Virus record (IMG/VR): IMGVR_UViG_3300033233_000073 | Location: 1 to 42,589 of that record | Length of the DNA: 42,589 nt | Direction: 5' to 3' (one strand) | Source: a virus | In this document: positions 25,558-39,799 of the stretch, one piece after another | Layout of the letters: each line of letters starts with the position of its first letter | Numbering within the stretch: position 1 is the first letter of the stretch | Notes under the pieces: model-generated | Database searches by the model: none | What the model was told of the DNA's origin: nothing | What the model saw: only the letters and a program-made list of their open reading frames with translations | Made by a program: the position numbers and the translations under genes

Positions 25558-26523
25558 TTAGGCGTGTTTGCGGAGCGTCTTTGTGACCCGGGCCAGACCC
25601 GCTATTTTGCCGACTGCTTCCTCGAGGTGCGCGGTCGCCAGGTGCGCATAGCGGCTGCTTACGCCCAGGTTGGAATGGCCGAGCAGATCGCGGACCGCGG
25701 CGAGCGGCGCCCCGGCCTGCACCAGCCAGCTCGCGTAGGTATGGCGCAGGTCGTGGAAGCGGATGTGCGGCATCTTCGCCTTGGCGCGGGCGCGGTCGAA
25801 GCCGTTGCGCAGCTCGTGCACCGTGAGACCTAGGGGCAGAGAGATATCGAGCGCCTCGGGCGGCAGTGGCACCAGGCGCGGGCGGCCGCTTTTGGACTCC
25901 TGGACATAGAGCGCATTGCCGCGCCGGCTGGATTCGTCGAGCGCGAGGAGTTCGCTGCGCCGGAGGCCGGAGGTGGCGGCGAGCAGGATCGCGTTGCGCA
26001 CGCGCCGATCGCGCGCAGCCGCCACAAGCCGCTGCACTTCGGCCGGGCTGAGATAGACGTGGCGGGCACGCTCGCCTGGCAGCAGTTGCACGCGGCCGGC
26101 AACCGGGTTCTCCAGCCAGCCCCATTGGCGGTGGGCGAGGTTCACAACGCGGCGCAGGATCGCCAGGCGCCGGTTGATAGTGGCCGGCTTGAGGCCGTCG
26201 GCGAGCCAGGCTCTGGTGGCGGATTCTGCAGCGTTGGCCACATCCTCGAGCGCGCGGCCGGCGATGTGCGGCAGGAGGGAACGCGCCTTATTCTGCAGAT
26301 CGTGCTCGGTGCGCAGCGTGCGCGCCTCGCCCGTCAGCCAGCGGTGGAGCGCTTCCTCGAGTGAGTAGCGCGCCTGGCGGCCAACTCGACGATCGGCGAT
26401 GCGGCCGCGCGTGCGGCGCTCGAAGTCGAGCGCGTCCGCCCGGGACCTAAAAGTTCTTTCAACCCGATTCCCCAAGTACTGAACACGAGCCTGCCATCCT
26501 TTTCCATGCTTGCGGACTGGCAT
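25558..26523 (-). CDS. int: Tyrosine recombinase integrase
   Basis: 321 residues. N-terminal arm-binding part starts RKHGKGWQARVQYLGNR. Core SAM-like domain about 54-140. Catalytic residues all present: Arg188 (ATSGLRRSELLAL), Lys211 (ESKSGRPR), His257-x2-Arg260 (RFHDLRHTYASW), His283 (LLGHSNLG) and Tyr292 (SSRYAHLA). It integrates the phage at the tRNA-Lys site next to its own 3' end. The start at 26523 has a weak ribosome site and lies 170 bases inside the upstream excisionase frame, so coupling or an internal start is possible. Confidence 0.94.
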   Translation of the reverse strand: MPVRKHGKGWQARVQYLGNRVERTFRSRADALDFERRTRGRIADRRVGRQARYSLEEALHRWLTGEARTLRTEHDLQNKARSLLPHIAGRALEDVANAAESATRAWLADGLKPATINRRLAILRRVVNLAHRQWGWLENPVAGRVQLLPGERARHVYLSPAEVQRLVAAARDRRVRNAILLAATSGLRRSELLALDESSRRGNALYVQESKSGRPRLVPLPPEALDISLPLGLTVHELRNGFDRARAKAKMPHIRFHDLRHTYASWLVQAGAPLAAVRDLLGHSNLGVSSRYAHLATAHLEEAVGKIAGLARVTKTLRKHA

Positions 26524-29261: not shown

Positions 29262-31004
29262 TTATGCGGCGACGATGGAAACTTGCTCTTCGAACTGCGC
29301 TCTGAGAATCGCAGCGGCGAGCGGTGGGCACACGGAGTTGCCGCAGCAGCGTACCTGCGCCGACTTCGTGAACGGCTTGCCCTCGGCGTCCGTCTCGATG
29401 CGATAGGTGTCCGGGAATCCCTGCGCCCTGAAAAGCTCGCGCGGTTGCAGCATCCGCATGCCGATATCGGCGATGGCGTATTCCTCGCCGTTGACCGTCA
29501 CCAGACCAAGGCGGTCCGTGGTATCGAGCGTGCTTACTGGAACATCAAGCGAGTTGCCGATGCTGCAGCCGTTGTACCGGCTCAGGAATGCGCGGACTTC
29601 GCCATAATGAATACCGCCGCGCCCGCCGCCGGCCTGAATGGTGTGTAGCGGCAGGTCAAGCTGCTGGCCGTGCTGAGACGTCCCCTTGAACTTCGTCAGG
29701 TGCGAGGCTACGACGGCGTGATGGTTGCCGCTCGTGACCGTCGGGATCGGCACTTCCATCTGCCGGCCGGAGTGTCCCGTGGTGTTGGTCATCAAGTTAG
29801 CGGCGACCAGCGCGTTGTGGTCGCAGGCAGTGATTGTGCTTACCGGTTCCCGCATGCCCGAGCCAGGGCGTTGCCCGCGATCGCCGTAGTGCTTCGCCAG
29901 AAAGGCCGATACCAGCGCATGCTTTTGCCCATCGACCACGGTACCGAGCGGTTTCTCCAGTCCAGGCACCCGCGGTTGCTGGCCGGGACGCTCGCCGTAG
30001 CCGGTCTGAATCAGGGTCGGCGAGACCAAGCCGAAGCGTGGGTCGCCGCATTGCGTGGGTAGCGGATCGTGCAAGTCGCCAGCGCGTGTCTCGTTGCCCT
30101 TGATCCCGTAGTACGGCGAAACAAACGGCGTCACCAGCGAGAACTCGCCGCCCTTCGTTTCGGCCGCGATCGTACGCAGTGGCTCGTCGATCGGGTGCAC
30201 CGTGTCCCGCCCGTTGTAATGGGCGATCGGGACGATGAACGGCTGCGCTGCCTCGATGACGTACTTGCGGATGCCGCGCGCGATCCGGCGCAGCGTGTTC
30301 TCGGCTAGGGGCCTGATGCGCTCGAAAATGGACGGGCATGGTAGCGACCATTCGATGCACTCGGCAGCAGTGCGCCACGCATGCGCCCGGTGCTTCCCGT
30401 GCGTCGGCGCCGGCCAGGCGATGGCGTTTCCATCGCAGCGCGCGATCAAGAAGAGCCGCTTGCGAGTCGTCGGCGCGCCATAGTCAGCGGCAACGAGCGC
30501 CTGAACGGCCACGTCGTAGCCGCAGCGTTCGAGCTGGCGCACGAAGCGCCGGAACGTCAGCCCTTTGCGCAGTGAGCAGGGCCGGCCGTCCTCAAGCAGC
30601 GGCCCCCAGTGCTGAAACTCCTCGACGTTCTCCAGCACGATGACGCGCGGGCTGACCGCCTTCGCCCACTTCACCGCGACCCATGCCAAGCCGCGAATCT
30701 TTTTCTCGACCGGGCGCCCGCCCTTGGCCTTCGAGAAGTGCTTGCAGTCCGGCGAGAGCCACATCAAGCCCACGCGCGAGCCACCGACAGCCTTGACCGG
30801 ATCGACCGCCCACACGTCCTCGCAGTAATGCAGGGAGGACGGGTGGTTGACGCGATGCATACGCAACGCTTCGGGGTCGTGGTTGATGGCGATATCCGGA
30901 CTGCGTCCGAGCGCCATCTCTATGCCGAGCGAGGCCCCGCCACCGCCGGCGAACGAATCGACGATCAGCTCATCGTGATGCAGCCGCAGAACCGGCGCCC
31001 TCAT
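29262..31004 (-). CDS. Cytosine-C5 DNA methyltransferase with repeat-containing target region
   Basis: 580 residues, longer than typical (350-450). Motif I VDSFAGGGGASLGIE, motif IV SPDCKHFSKAKGG with catalytic Cys87, motif VI VLENVEEF, motif VIII AADYGAPTTRKRLF, motif IX/X GFPDTYRI and QVRCCGNSV. Between VIII and IX, residues 256-503 are seven tandem units of 32-38 residues built around FLxxYYG...G...PLxTI...HALV, occupying the target-recognition region. Probably protects phage DNA from host restriction or marks it. The start overlaps the upstream frame's stop (ATGA). Confidence 0.92.
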   Translation of the reverse strand: MRAPVLRLHHDELIVDSFAGGGGASLGIEMALGRSPDIAINHDPEALRMHRVNHPSSLHYCEDVWAVDPVKAVGGSRVGLMWLSPDCKHFSKAKGGRPVEKKIRGLAWVAVKWAKAVSPRVIVLENVEEFQHWGPLLEDGRPCSLRKGLTFRRFVRQLERCGYDVAVQALVAADYGAPTTRKRLFLIARCDGNAIAWPAPTHGKHRAHAWRTAAECIEWSLPCPSIFERIRPLAENTLRRIARGIRKYVIEAAQPFIVPIAHYNGRDTVHPIDEPLRTIAAETKGGEFSLVTPFVSPYYGIKGNETRAGDLHDPLPTQCGDPRFGLVSPTLIQTGYGERPGQQPRVPGLEKPLGTVVDGQKHALVSAFLAKHYGDRGQRPGSGMREPVSTITACDHNALVAANLMTNTTGHSGRQMEVPIPTVTSGNHHAVVASHLTKFKGTSQHGQQLDLPLHTIQAGGGRGGIHYGEVRAFLSRYNGCSIGNSLDVPVSTLDTTDRLGLVTVNGEEYAIADIGMRMLQPRELFRAQGFPDTYRIETDAEGKPFTKSAQVRCCGNSVCPPLAAAILRAQFEEQVSIVAA

Positions 31005-33307: not shown

Positions 33308-33712
33308 TCATGAGCCCTGTTTTTTACGCGTTGAGGGACTCCGCGCCCTTAGCGTTTGGGCTTGCGGGACGTCTGCTTTTGCGGCCTGGATGAGTTGAGC
33401 AATCGAAGCAATCTCTTTGATCGCGATGTCGACTGCGTAATTGGGGAGTTCCTGCATTATTTTCAGCGCCGTGATGATGCGTTGATCCTGCCCAAGCTCA
33501 GTTGCACCCATCGATCCATCTTCCAGCGCGAGCCACTCAGGACGAACGCCGCAGGCTCGTGCGTATTGCACCGTGAATTCAGAGCCTTCGGCTTCCCCGC
33601 GTTCGAGTTTTGAGACATTCTCTTGCGTGCCAACCTCTGCTTTGGCGGCAAGTGCCGACTGCGAAAGTTTGGCATGTTCTCTGGCTGCGCGGAGGCGTTC
33701 CCCATATTTCAT
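33308..33712 (-). CDS. CI-type phage repressor (XRE helix-turn-helix)
   Basis: 134 residues from ATG 33712; the longer frame reads through operator DNA. Residues about 1-65 are an XRE HTH: YGERLRAAREHAKLSQSALA, VSKLERGEAEGSEFTVQYARACGVRPEWLALEDG. The C-terminal part is helical with a Lys/Arg tail and no S24 peptidase motif, so SOS self-cleavage is not expected; induction must work otherwise. Lies between two operator clusters and should repress P_L and P_R while controlling itself from the P_RM side. Confidence 0.9.
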   Translation of the reverse strand: MKYGERLRAAREHAKLSQSALAAKAEVGTQENVSKLERGEAEGSEFTVQYARACGVRPEWLALEDGSMGATELGQDQRIITALKIMQELPNYAVDIAIKEIASIAQLIQAAKADVPQAQTLRARSPSTRKKQGS

Positions 33713-33725
33713 GCTTGGACACTCT

Positions 33726-33792
33726 AAAACCGTGGTTCTAGATTGCCAAAGAACCATGGTACTTGACGGATTAAGAACCACGGTTCTAGACT
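33726..33792 (+). promoter_or_regulatory. P_R promoter with three operators
   Basis: -35 TTGACG (33763-33768), 18-base spacer, -10 TAGACT (33787-33792). Operators: 33726-33739 (AAAACC GT GGTTCT), 33750-33763 (AGAACC AT GGTACT) and 33774-33787 (AGAACC AC GGTTCT), centres exactly 24 bp apart. The inner pair sits on P_R just as at P_L; the outer weaker site lies toward the repressor start and likely tunes its own transcription. Confidence 0.8.
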
Positions 33793-33801
33793 ACGCCTTC
33801 A

Positions 33802-34092
33802 ATGAGCAAGGAAGTTCTCCAGAAGGCCGTCCAAATAGCTGGTGGCCAGGTGGCGCTTGCCGCTGGCATTCGAAGCGAGATGCCGGGCCTGAAGGTGAGC
33901 CAAGCGCACATCTGGAAGTGGCTTAACAGGGTCCAAGCCGAAGTACCTCCTGCCGAATATGTCATCGCAATTGCGAAGACCGTGGACTTTGAAGTCACGC
34001 CACATGAATTACGACCGGATATCTACCCTCACCCGCGCGACGGTTTACCCGGTCAACTGCCGGAGCCGCTGTGCGAGGAGCGCGCCGGATGA
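33802..34092 (+). CDS. Cro-like YdaS-family HTH regulator
   Basis: 96 residues, first gene under P_R. SKEVLQKAVQIAGGQVALAAGI, VSQAHIWKWLNRV and EVPPAEYVIAIAKTVDFEVTPHELRPDIYP are the YdaS/Cro-type HTH signature. Expected to bind the same operators and favour lytic growth. The last 18 or so residues are Pro/Gly-rich. Confidence 0.88.
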   Translation: MSKEVLQKAVQIAGGQVALAAGIRSEMPGLKVSQAHIWKWLNRVQAEVPPAEYVIAIAKTVDFEVTPHELRPDIYPHPRDGLPGQLPEPLCEERAG

Positions 34093-34155
34093 AGCCATTC
34101 TCTTGTTTTGACGACCCCTTCCCTGTACCTACGTGTACCTAAATTAGGGACAGCT

Positions 34156-34557
34156 ATGGACAGCACACAAATCCCCCTGTTTTTTGATCGTGTTGAAGGT
34201 GCATTGGAGCATTTGATCAACGTTTGCGGCGGTCGCAAAAAGTTCGCGGCCGAGATGTGGGCCAACATGCCAGCGCGCGATGCGCATAATCGGCTCGATG
34301 CCTGCCTCAATTCGGAGCGGCGCGAGAAATTTTCCCTGCACGAGCTGATACTCATGCTCAAGCGCGGGCGCCAGGTCGATTGCCATATCGTCATGCAGTT
34401 CCTCGCCGCCGAGTGCGGCTACCGCGCCGAGCCGATCGAGCCCGAGAACGAGCGAGCGCGTCTGCAGCGGGAATTCGTCGAATCGGTGAAGCGCCTGGAC
34501 GCGATCCGGGAATCGCTCGCCCGCATCGAGCCCACGCAGGTCAGGGCGGTGAAATGA
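34156..34557 (+). CDS. Early regulator-like helical protein
   Basis: 133 residues from ATG 34156 with AGGGA upstream; an earlier in-frame start at 34108 gives no family sequence. Segments FFDRVEGALEHLINVCGGRKKFAAEMW, RLDACLNSERREKFSLHELILMLKRGR and FLAAECGYRAEPIEPENERARLQREFVESVKRL belong to a family commonly found just downstream of cro in high-GC Proteobacteria phages, in the CII position. DNA binding is likely but not shown. Confidence 0.65.
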   Translation: MDSTQIPLFFDRVEGALEHLINVCGGRKKFAAEMWANMPARDAHNRLDACLNSERREKFSLHELILMLKRGRQVDCHIVMQFLAAECGYRAEPIEPENERARLQREFVESVKRLDAIRESLARIEPTQVRAVK

Positions 34558-34984: not shown

Positions 34985-37564
34985 ATGAACGTCGCTGAGC
35001 CCGCGTTGGAGTATCGACAATTCCTGAAGGCGAAGGTCAAACTGGACCATGCCTGCGGCTTCGATGTCGATCCGAGGGAGCTGAATCCGGCGCTAAAAGA
35101 TCACACACGCGCGATGGTGCGCTGGGCGCTGCTTGGTGGGCGTAGGGCCCTATTTGCTGCCTTTGGGCTGCACAAGACTTGCGCGCAGCTGGAGATCATG
35201 CGGCTGATAGGCGCGCGCCGCCCAGGAATTAGGTTGATCACGCTCCCGCTCGGCGTGCGGCAGGAGTTCACCAGGGATTCCGCGTTTTTCTTTACAGGCG
35301 AGCACGTCATACTACTGAAGTTCATCCGGCGCGCCGGCGAAATCGAGGACGACCGGACGATCTATCTCACGAACTACGAATCGGTGCGCGAGGGAATCCT
35401 CGATATCGCGGCAATCAAACCAGTCGCGGTGAGCCTTGACGAGGCCTCGATCCTGCGTGGTTTCGGCGGTACGAAGACTTTCCGTGAAGCTATGGCCGTG
35501 TTCGCTGGCGACGATCGCCGCGACCAAGCGCAGCGCGTATCGAGCGATGGCGTTCCCTTCCGGTTCGTTGCCACGGCAACACCGAGCCCGAACGAGTACA
35601 TCGAGATCCTCGCCTACGCCGCGTTCCTCGGAATCATGGATGTCGGCCAGGCGAAGACGAGATTCTTCAAGCGCAACAGCGAGAAGGCCGACGCGCTGAC
35701 GCTGCATCCGCACAAAGAACGGGAGTTCTGGCTGTGGGTCGCATCGTGGGCGCTGTTCGTCCAGAAACCATCCGATCTCGGGTTTAGCGACGAAGGCTAC
35801 GCACTGCCGGCGCTCGATGTGCGCTGGCACGAACTACCGTCCGACCACAGCACCGCAGGCATAGAAAAAGACGGGCAGGGCCGGATGTTCCGCTCAGCCG
35901 CGATCGGCGTGCAGGACGCGGCGCGGGAGAAGCGCGACAGCCTGCAGGATCGGATAGCGAAGCTGCTTGAGTTGCGCGCCGAGGACCCGGCGGCGCACCG
36001 GCTGCTTTGGCACGATTTGGAAGCAGAGCGGGGCGCAATCCAGACCGCATGCCCGTACGCCGCGGCCGTGTACGGCTCGCAGGACCTTGACCTGCGCGAG
36101 AAACTGATCACCAGTTTCTCAGAGGGCGAAATCGCGGAGCTTGCCGGGAAGCCCTCGATGCTCGGCCAGGGCTGTAATTTCCAGCGTCACTGCCACCAGG
36201 CGATCTACCTCGGCATCGGCTTCAAGTTCAATGATTGGATTCAAAGCGTGCACCGCTTGCAGCGGTTCGGCCAGGCGCAACCGGTGCGCATCGACCTGAT
36301 CTACACCGAGGCGGAACGCGAGGTACGGCGCGAGCTAGAGCGCAAGTGGCGCCAGCACGTCGAGCAGGTCGAAATCATGAGCGCGATCATTCTGGAGTAC
36401 GGCCTGTCGGTTGCCTCGATGGCGCACGCGCTCACCAGATCCATCGGCGTTGAGCGCGCCGAGGCCTCGGGGAGGTCCTGGACGTTGCTCAACAGTGATT
36501 GTGTGGAAGAAACGCAGAGCATGCCAGCGGACAGCGTCGGGCTGATCGTTACCTCGATCCCGTTCTCCCACCAGTACGAGTACTCGCCGAGCTACAACGA
36601 CTTCGGGCACACCGACGACAACGCGCACTTCTGGCGGCAGATGGACTTTCTCACACCGCAGTTGTTGCGAGTACTCCAGCCCGGGCGCGTGCTCGCGGTA
36701 CACGTCAAGGATCGGATCACCCCTGGCGGGATAAATGGCTTCGGCTTTCAGACCGTCTCCAGAATCTCGGACGCCTGCGCTGATCACTTCGAGCGACACG
36801 GGTTCGCGTTCCTTGGCCGCAAGACGATCGTTACCGATGTTGTGCGGGAGAACAATCAGACCTATCGCCTTGGCTGGTCGGAGCAGTGCAAGGACGGTTC
36901 TCGAATGGGTGCCGGGTTGCCCGAATACGTGATGCTCTTCAGGAGGCCGCCAACCGATCGCTCGAACGGCTACGCCGACCTGCCTGTGGCGAAGTCGAAG
37001 GACAAATACACGCGCCCGCGCTGGCAATATGACGCGCACGGCTACATGCGATCGAGCGGCGATCGGATATTGCAACCCGAGGACCTGACCGGGTTGGCGC
37101 AGGATGCGATCTACAAAAGATTCCGGAAGTACTCGCTCGAAAACATCTATGACTTCGCGCGTGATGTAATTCTCGCCGAGCACGTTGATCGCTCTGGGTG
37201 GTTGCCTTCGACCTTCATGCTGATGCCGCCGGCGTCCTGGCATCCGGATGTCTGGACGGATGTAGCGCGCATGCGCACGCTGAACAGCAGCCAGGCATCG
37301 AAGGGCAAGGAAATGCACCTTTGCCCGTTGCAGTTCGACATCGTCGATCGGATCATTACGCAGTTCTCAATGGACGGCGAGACCGTCTTTGATCCATTCG
37401 CCGGCCTAGGCACCGTGCCTTTTTGTGCCGTGAAGCTCGGAAGGCGAGGCCTCGGCGTTGAACTGAACGCGGCCTACTACCGGGACGCGATTTGGTACTG
37501 CCAGCAGGCCGAAGCGCAGCGCGCGACGCCATCGCTTTTCGACCTGCAGGAGCTTGCCGCATGA
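34985..37564 (+). CDS. SNF2-type helicase fused to a beta-class DNA methyltransferase
   Basis: 859 residues. Helicase half: FAAFGLHKTCAQLE (degenerate Walker A, GLHKT at 61-65), AVSLDEASIL (motif II, 152-155), VATATPSPNEY (motif III), SMLGQGCNFQ and SVHRLQRFGQAQPVRIDLIY (motifs V/VI, 423-430). Methyltransferase half (about 500-859): LLNSDCVEETQSMPADSVGLIVTSIPF with SIPF in place of DPPY, YEYSPSYNDFGH, HVKDRI, then FDPFAGLGTVPFCAVKLGR (SAM site) and GVELNAAYY. Order IV-target region-I is beta class. Fusions of helicase and methyltransferase, such as phage P1 DarB, protect DNA against restriction; this one is smaller and lies where replication genes are expected. Substrate base (N4-C or N6-A) unknown. 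Confidence 0.88.
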   Translation: MNVAEPALEYRQFLKAKVKLDHACGFDVDPRELNPALKDHTRAMVRWALLGGRRALFAAFGLHKTCAQLEIMRLIGARRPGIRLITLPLGVRQEFTRDSAFFFTGEHVILLKFIRRAGEIEDDRTIYLTNYESVREGILDIAAIKPVAVSLDEASILRGFGGTKTFREAMAVFAGDDRRDQAQRVSSDGVPFRFVATATPSPNEYIEILAYAAFLGIMDVGQAKTRFFKRNSEKADALTLHPHKEREFWLWVASWALFVQKPSDLGFSDEGYALPALDVRWHELPSDHSTAGIEKDGQGRMFRSAAIGVQDAAREKRDSLQDRIAKLLELRAEDPAAHRLLWHDLEAERGAIQTACPYAAAVYGSQDLDLREKLITSFSEGEIAELAGKPSMLGQGCNFQRHCHQAIYLGIGFKFNDWIQSVHRLQRFGQAQPVRIDLIYTEAEREVRRELERKWRQHVEQVEIMSAIILEYGLSVASMAHALTRSIGVERAEASGRSWTLLNSDCVEETQSMPADSVGLIVTSIPFSHQYEYSPSYNDFGHTDDNAHFWRQMDFLTPQLLRVLQPGRVLAVHVKDRITPGGINGFGFQTVSRISDACADHFERHGFAFLGRKTIVTDVVRENNQTYRLGWSEQCKDGSRMGAGLPEYVMLFRRPPTDRSNGYADLPVAKSKDKYTRPRWQYDAHGYMRSSGDRILQPEDLTGLAQDAIYKRFRKYSLENIYDFARDVILAEHVDRSGWLPSTFMLMPPASWHPDVWTDVARMRTLNSSQASKGKEMHLCPLQFDIVDRIITQFSMDGETVFDPFAGLGTVPFCAVKLGRRGLGVELNAAYYRDAIWYCQQAEAQRATPSLFDLQELAA

Positions 37565-38410: not shown

Positions 38411-39799
38411 ATGCCGAGCGAACGCGAGATCGTACAGGGGATTGTTTCCGGCGCGCTCAACGACTGGCACGCCCGGTTGCGAACGAGCGAGAAGGGGAAG
38501 CTCCTGCAATGCTGGCAGAACGTGTACACGTTCCTCGGATTCCATCCGGCATGGAGCGGGGTGCTCGCGCTCGATACGTTCGCCCAGCGCGTGGTCAAGC
38601 GTAAGCCGCCGCCTTTCGAGCGCGCCGCGGTCGGCCCATGGACGCCGGACGATGACGCGGAGCTGGGGCTCTGGCTCGCCGCGCAGGACGGCGAGGACCG
38701 CTTCGTGGTCATCTCGAAGCAGACGCTCATCGATGGGATTTCGGCGAGCGCGATGCGGCACCGCTTTCACCCGGTGCGCGAATATCTGGAGGCATGCAAG
38801 CCATCCGCAAAGCCACTCATCGATTGCTGGACGACACGCTTTCTCGGCGCGCGCGCGTCGCGCTACACGGCGGCTGTGGGGCGTTATTTCCTCATGAACA
38901 TGGTGACGCGCATCCTCGAGCCCGGCTGCATCATGCGCTCGGTGCCGGTGCTGGAAGCGGCGCAGGAACGCGGCAAGTCGACGGCGCTCCACGCGCTTGC
39001 GCAGCCGTGGTTCTCGGACTCGCACTTCGAACTCGCCTCGAAAGACGCGTTCGAGGTGATCCAGGGCGTGTGGCTGTATGAGATCTCGGAGATGGAGCAG
39101 TTCAGCAAGGCCGAGACGACGCGCGTGAAGCAATTTATCTCGAGCCGCGAGGACAACTACCGCCCGCCCTATGAGCGGCGGGCGCAGCGCATGCCGCGCC
39201 AAGTGTGCTTCGGCGGTACGACGAACGACCGGCAATATCTCAGGGACTGGAGCGGCAACACGCGCTTCTGGCCGTTGCGCTGCGAAGAGGAGGGCGAGAT
39301 CCGCATCGAGGAATTGGCGCAGGCGCGGGACGGACTCTTCGGCGAGGCGTTTGCGTTGTGCCGGGCGCGGGCGCGGCGGCACCCGACGCGCGAAGAATCG
39401 GCGGCGCACTTCGAACCCGAGCAGGAAGCGCGCCGCCCCGAGCACCTATGGATGCCGATGGTCGCGAAGTGGCTTAATGATCCCGCGCTCGTGGTGCGCC
39501 GGAACGAGGTAATGGTCACAGAGGTGCTGTATGAGGGCCTCGGCATCAAGCCGGATCGCATGACCGCGACGATGCAGCGCGATGTGGGCCTGATCCTGAC
39601 GGCCCTCGGCTGGGAGCAGGCGAGGCCTGGCGGGCACAACGGCTACCGGCCGCGCGTATATCGCAGGCCTGCGGCAGTGGGTGGCGCTGATGCTGTCGGC
39701 GCTCCCGCAATCCACGTCCCCTCGATCATCGCTCCGGGCGATATCGATCCGTCCATTGGCCGCGAACCTGGAGAAGACGATGAACTGCTGCCACTCTGA
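38411..39799 (+). CDS. VapE-family (virulence-associated E) replicative ATPase/helicase
   Basis: 462 residues. LEAAQERGKST at 181-191 is the Walker A (the usual first Gly is Ala), then YEISEMEQFSKAETTRVKQFISSREDNYRPPYERRAQRMPRQ and FGGTTNDRQYLRDWSGNTRFWPL, the strongest VapE signatures with sensor Asn and arginine finger. Phage VapE proteins are DNA-dependent ATPases that unwind at the phage origin. No separate primase is seen; N-terminal 150 residues are not a recognised primase. An iteron-rich region follows immediately. Confidence 0.88.
   Translation: MPSEREIVQGIVSGALNDWHARLRTSEKGKLLQCWQNVYTFLGFHPAWSGVLALDTFAQRVVKRKPPPFERAAVGPWTPDDDAELGLWLAAQDGEDRFVVISKQTLIDGISASAMRHRFHPVREYLEACKPSAKPLIDCWTTRFLGARASRYTAAVGRYFLMNMVTRILEPGCIMRSVPVLEAAQERGKSTALHALAQPWFSDSHFELASKDAFEVIQGVWLYEISEMEQFSKAETTRVKQFISSREDNYRPPYERRAQRMPRQVCFGGTTNDRQYLRDWSGNTRFWPLRCEEEGEIRIEELAQARDGLFGEAFALCRARARRHPTREESAAHFEPEQEARRPEHLWMPMVAKWLNDPALVVRRNEVMVTEVLYEGLGIKPDRMTATMQRDVGLILTALGWEQARPGGHNGYRPRVYRRPAAVGGADAVGAPAIHVPSIIAPGDIDPSIGREPGEDDELLPL

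Follow-up and report, generated by a model that had tools for sequence, protein, structure and literature searches.

A clade of phage SNF2 translocase-methyltransferase fusions with a KsgA/Erm-like motif IV and a recurrently switched ATP site

Fusions of an SNF2-type helicase to a DNA methyltransferase (MTase) form a large, already known phage family (phrog_16), and the fusion in itself is not unusual. Full-length members from Mycobacterium Cheoctovirus Saal (gp68), Pseudomonas phi297, Paracoccus Pthi1 and Rhizobium RR1-A share the SIPF motif IV of the protein described here, and the family varies in the type of its ATP site, which is GLGKT or GLGKS in Saal and phi297 and GLHKT in Pthi1 and Pan5. 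Our literature search returned no published methylome or assay of phrog_16-type fusions, and for no member of the family did we find data on methylation, ATPase activity or anti-restriction. Beta-class MTases are defined by motif IV preceding motif I. Members of this class such as TTHA0409 (PDB 2zie) and CcrM have the same fold and motif order as the MTase half of our protein, but their aligned chains carry the canonical PP at motif IV and they have no translocase. The SNF2 ATPases Ino80, ISWI, ALC1 and RapA share the fold and motifs II–VI of the helicase half and differ from it in their canonical Q-motif Gln and GKT P-loop. The KsgA/Erm rRNA adenine dimethylases have the same motif IV signature, an analogy of the active site alone, whereas their RNA substrates, non-permuted fold and lack of a helicase set them apart. 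DarB of phage P1 also joins an SNF2-type helicase to a DNA MTase; however, it is a virion protein of 2255 residues in which an N-terminal gamma-class MTase is followed by the helicase, whereas our protein has the helicase first and a beta-class MTase second.

The gene analysed here occupies positions 34985–37564 on the plus strand of a window of 42,589 nucleotides (the whole of the stretch analysed, from IMG/VR virus record IMGVR_UViG_3300033233_000073); all its parts are given below in window coordinates on that strand. It is an intact reading frame with an ATG start and no internal stop, encoding 859 residues. The phrog_16 profile matches residues 17–858 (E 1.1e-105) and so spans both domains, and the sole Pfam match is to PF01555 (residues 519–835, 53.3 bits against a cut-off of 26.7). 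We identified 308 phage records by tblastn, 300 of which cover at least 80% of the protein; they are mainly from phages of Mycobacterium, Flavobacterium, Arthrobacter and Pseudomonas and are frequently annotated as "DNA helicase/methylase". IMG/VR contigs yielded additional relatives, and bacterial genomes yielded others as prophages. The homologue in Pseudanabaena phage Pan5 (L172:4016-6565) is labelled "restriction endonuclease EcoP15I, modification subunit" in GenBank, which is likely a mis-annotation. The contig JAHFTW010000006.1, from a metagenome-assembled genome labelled Thermoplasmata, contains two identical copies of the gene ~57 kb apart (L084 and L085), probably because the contig is contaminated or a prophage was duplicated during assembly.

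The AlphaFold2 model of the fusion protein (mean pLDDT 80.6) contains an SNF2 fold of two RecA lobes in its helicase half, which spans residues 23–473 (35051–36403). Residues 27–463 of the model superimpose on the Ino80 ATPase with a VIA-align Z score of 29.5 over 389 residues at 3.1 Å. The catalytic residues of SNF2 motifs II, III, V and VI are all present; motif II is DEAS (residues 152–155; 35438–35449), motif III is TATPSP (197–202; 35573–35590) and motif VI is HRLQRFGQ (423–430; 36251–36274). Residues 395–400 read QGCNFQ. The Q-motif Gln and a GK[TS] P-loop are both missing, with Thr at residue 41 (35105–35107) and a variant Walker A, GLHKT, at residues 61–65 (35165–35179), in which Gly63 is replaced by His and Lys64 and Thr65 are kept. 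The MTase half (residues 497–856; 36473–37552) matches TTHA0409 in the model comparison and is arranged as motif IV, the TRD region, motif X and motif I. Its motif IV, SIPF, starts at residue 524 (524–527; 36554–36565) and motif I, DPFAGLGT, at residue 803 (803–810; 37391–37414), in the order expected of the beta class. The last Gly of the FxGxG element of motif I is replaced by Met or Phe in most relatives (DPFGGLMT or DPFGGLFT), and the window protein has the canonical form. The original prediction of an SNF2-MTase fusion bearing GLHKT and SIPF, with motif VI (QRFGQ) and MTase motif I retained, was thus borne out in all these features.

Based on the architecture, fold, conservation, ATP-site coupling, sister-clade contrast and gene neighbourhood described here, we hypothesised that this protein belongs to the early or replication module and modifies phage DNA against restriction, with both odd motifs serving as functional alternatives. 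We give this reading somewhat better than an even chance, its catalytic activity, target base, degree of methylation and anti-restriction role all being predicted. The SNF2-type motor would probably act as a double-stranded-DNA translocase that carries the covalently joined MTase along newly made phage DNA, and the beta-class MTase would methylate exocyclic amines, so that the phage DNA could escape recognition by host restriction enzymes. The evidence leans towards cytosine N4 as the better guess for the target, because motif IV contains a Ser and the closest annotated viral MTases act on cytosine N4. The departure from FxGxG in most relatives counts against the hypothesis as a whole.

The motif IV of the window protein does not follow the standard pattern, [DNS]PP[FYW]. 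In a first alignment of 162 proteins we found SIPF in 152, SVPF in nine and SLPF in one; in a larger deduplicated set, S[ILV]PF is present in all 207 unique clade members (195/11/1), and position 2 is never Pro. This fixation identifies the MTase as a variant of the PF01555 class and not as a standard member, and it answers in the affirmative the question whether SIPF is conserved among homologues. The clade is separated at 100* support in the MTase tree (FastTree) from a sister clade that includes Fancypants gp69/gp70, Dulem virus 39 and Flavobacterium VK52. The sister clade comprises homologous SNF2 helicases and N4/N6 MTases, as separate or fused genes, at ~30% identity and in a similar genomic slot, but its motif IV is SPPF in 83 of 85 proteins, with one APPF and one SIPF, so that Pro is found in 84 of 85. 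Fifty of its tree rows have a separate helicase gene and 35 a fused one. Fusion can be ruled out as the cause of SIPF, since 35 of the 85 sister-clade MTases are fused to the helicase yet keep Pro. The one sister-clade SIPF (L234, contig IMGVR_UViG_2894613022_000006) represents an independent change from SPPF, and the helicase of this locus is a separate gene. Both versions occur in one slot of Cheoctovirus phages, downstream of an HNH gene, where SIPF occurs in the fused gene of Saal and SPPF in the split genes of Fancypants.

Monomethylating enzymes feature (N/D)PP(Y/F/W) at motif IV, whereas the dimethylating KsgA and ErmC' have (A/S/N)(L/I/V)P(Y/F); the small hydrophobic residue that replaces the first Pro alters the backbone such that a monomethylated substrate can rebind (RlmJ paper, PMC3814359). 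The motif of all 207 clade members, S[I/V/L]PF, fits the KsgA/Erm signature exactly: the first Pro is replaced as in KsgA/Erm, whereas Ser, Phe and the second Pro are kept together with the position-2 main-chain carbonyl, an arrangement that should give space for an already methylated amine. Judged by this signature, we recognise here a clade-fixed, KsgA/Erm-like motif IV, for which the term "degenerate" is wrong. The same comparison tentatively predicts dimethylated DNA, a reasonable extrapolation whose outcome we nonetheless consider rather doubtful, as it starts from RNA MTases whose domain topology differs. Our literature search found no precedent for a DNA MTase that makes dimethylated bases. 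A change of Leu to Pro at the corresponding position of KsgA reportedly impaired the second methylation. The fuller proposal, that the family makes N4,N4-dimethylcytosine or N6,N6-dimethyladenine through this motif IV, driven by an SNF2 motor that toggles between a Q-motif Gln and a P-loop His or Gln, seems to us similarly speculative. Should SIPF indeed mean dimethylation, hundreds of phages, many of them grown on the standard laboratory host Mycobacterium smegmatis mc2 155, would carry such a DNA modification, and the dimethylated base may be mistaken for m4C or m6A in SMRT sequencing.

The strongest alternative is that the protein is an ordinary orphan m4C/m6A MTase with a translocase, making a monomethylated product that is unaffected by a tolerated, lineage-fixed and neutral change to Ile, Val or Leu in motif IV; we regard this as possible, though clearly less probable than our main hypothesis. 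In DNA MTases the first Pro contacts the amine through its main-chain carbonyl (PMC3814359), that is, through the position-2 carbonyl and not through the Pro ring, which is consistent with a neutral change, as is the presence of the SPPF sister clade in the same slot of related phages (fused in Saal, split in Fancypants). However, fixation in 207 of 207 proteins over ~50% divergence, the restriction to Ile, Val and Leu, and the independent replacement of Pro by Ile in L234 suggest more than drift.

The genomic surroundings also agreed with what had been proposed for this gene, namely a place in the early operon where a replication gene is expected. Upstream we identified an HTH repressor (33308–33781, minus strand), a YdaS/Cro-like gene (33802–34092, plus strand) and a CII-like regulator (34108–34557, plus strand). 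Downstream follow a VapE-type primase-helicase of the replication module (38411–39799, plus strand; PF05272, E 1.3e-62; phrog_256), a Q-like antiterminator and the small terminase subunit, and an integrase is encoded at 25558–26523. These genes indicate that the phage is temperate and that the fusion gene is early. The same phage encodes a second DNA MTase, of the C5-cytosine type (29262–31004, minus strand; PF00145, E 7e-20; phrog_116, E 8e-98), which is also present in three of the four near relatives. A C5-cytosine MTase is the commonest neighbour cluster of the family, found in 53 of 161 loci, 40 of these with a recognisable motif, and lies within 4 kb of the helicase-MTase gene in at least 40 of the 161; taken as raw counts, these figures suggest layered DNA modification. 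The neighbourhood could also be read to mean that the helicase serves in replication initiation or at the fork and that methylation is secondary, for example in origin marking. VapE adjoins the gene in the window, and relatives adjoin clamp, SSB, RecT, primase or replicative helicase genes. We nonetheless consider this reading unlikely, given that the MTase always accompanies the helicase in the clade, whereas the replication neighbours differ between phages.

The ATP site of the helicase shows a paired variation that involves the Q motif, whose loss together with the Walker A Gly had been missed in the original prediction. Of 204 unique relatives, 142 have Gly at residue 63 and the other 62 have His or Gln, with no further residue represented. 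A scan of ~850 alignment columns, made with no prior hypothesis, identified residue 41 as separating the two types completely; this residue aligns with the Gln of LRSYQ in ALC1 and represents the Q-motif Gln. At this position the Gly63 type carries Gln (138), His (3) or Glu (1), whereas the His/Gln63 type carries Thr (26), Asn (17), Cys (7), Val (7), Ile (2), Ala (2) or Ser (1) and never Gln or His. The pairing is without exception (204/204), Gln or His occupies exactly one of the two positions in 203 of the 204, and the counts were reproduced from the raw sequences without an alignment. All 80 sister-clade helicases have Gln41 and Gly63, which is therefore probably the ancestral state. No HK or QK P-loop was found in other helicase-like ORFs among the 5323 ORFs of the loci.

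On a full-length tree built without columns 35–67, the ATP-site switch needs 14 changes, which rules out a single origin of GLHKT on this tree, and in 12 of 12 supported, independent pairs both positions switch (sign test, p 0.0005). The helicase-only tree, on which recombination weighs less, needs 10 changes, with six of six supported pairs concordant (p 0.03), and trees of lobe 1 alone need 9–11 changes, with three to four supported pairs. The MTase-only tree requires 20; that it needs more than the helicase-only and lobe-1 trees indicates that recombination between helicase and MTase inflates the full-length count. On these trees the paired switch recurs, and the independence of several switches, though not of every one, is secure. 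Lys64, Asp152, Glu153, Arg424, Arg427 and Gln430 are invariant in both ATP-site types. Residue 429 in motif VI, where Gly instead of Leu tends to accompany the His63 type, and Thr65 also tend to track the switch, associations that are suggestive only because the scan took in ~850 columns, whereas the 41–63 pairing is complete. Residue counts at MTase motif I show no clear difference between the two ATP-site types.

The Q motif hydrogen bonds to the P-loop in XPD, and ATP hydrolysis by the SNF2 protein SMARCAL1 needs motifs Q and I (PMC4608764). By analogy, a Gln or His that is lost from the Q-motif helix and regained in the P-loop could maintain the link between the two; this reciprocal change probably restores the contact argued from the literature. 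An altered NTP preference may be the alternative, considering that helicases lacking the Q motif are not ATP-specific (PMC4608764). With all other catalytic residues invariant in both types, the motor is predicted to be active with an alternative ATP-site wiring. GLHKT represents one of the two states between which the ATP site has recurrently switched, and it is not degenerate; "degenerate Walker A" overstated a change of the last Gly alone, with Lys64 and Thr65 kept. For GLHKT, the question of conservation is answered in part: it is a recurrent state coupled to the Q motif in 204 of 204 proteins, but it is not universal, His or Gln63 occurring in 62 of them. Such exceptionless pairing offers natural, repeated double substitutions for probing the disputed role of the Q-motif Gln in SNF2 motors.

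The loss of both the Walker A Gly and the motif IV Pro in the window protein might instead point to a decayed enzyme, with one or both halves catalytically dead and retained for a structural or DNA-binding role. This is improbable, as all other catalytic residues are invariant and the changes are paired or clade-fixed and not scattered, in contrast to the random motif loss in close homologues that was to be expected of decay. The gene is also under purifying selection (dN 0.14 against dS 0.9–1.05 for the two nearest relatives, at 81% amino acid identity).

Even less probable is that the protein supplies modification and translocation to a restriction system carried by the phage, of the type III or ISP-like kind. 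HNH or other nuclease genes adjoin some members, but at the sequence level we identified neither a nuclease domain nor a conserved partner nuclease. Residues 1–30 leave no space for such a domain, and the commonest neighbour clusters of the 161 loci, which were assigned by eye apart from the C5-MTase cluster, included no conserved nuclease.

Membership of the DarB antirestriction family, with the protein packaged and co-injected, is scarcely credible despite the shared pairing of SNF2-type helicase and DNA MTase and the NVPF motif IV of P1 DarB, since the absence of significant similarity (best BLASTP E 0.82), the reversed domain order and the different MTase class rule out the suggested "DarB-like" label as kinship, and the gene has an early-operon position. 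An anti-restriction function that works like that of DarB is possible for the window protein. Among DarB proteins, NVPF is found in P1, D6 and one Streptococcus relative, and others have NPPF/NPPY or NAPF; NVPF is thus not a DarB-wide trait. NPP(Y/F) has been given as the motif of the DarB family (PMC5512222), from which P1 and D6 depart. In P1 DarB (L175:10469-17236, minus strand) the NVPF motif lies near residue 176, and one Bordetella relative has NAPF.
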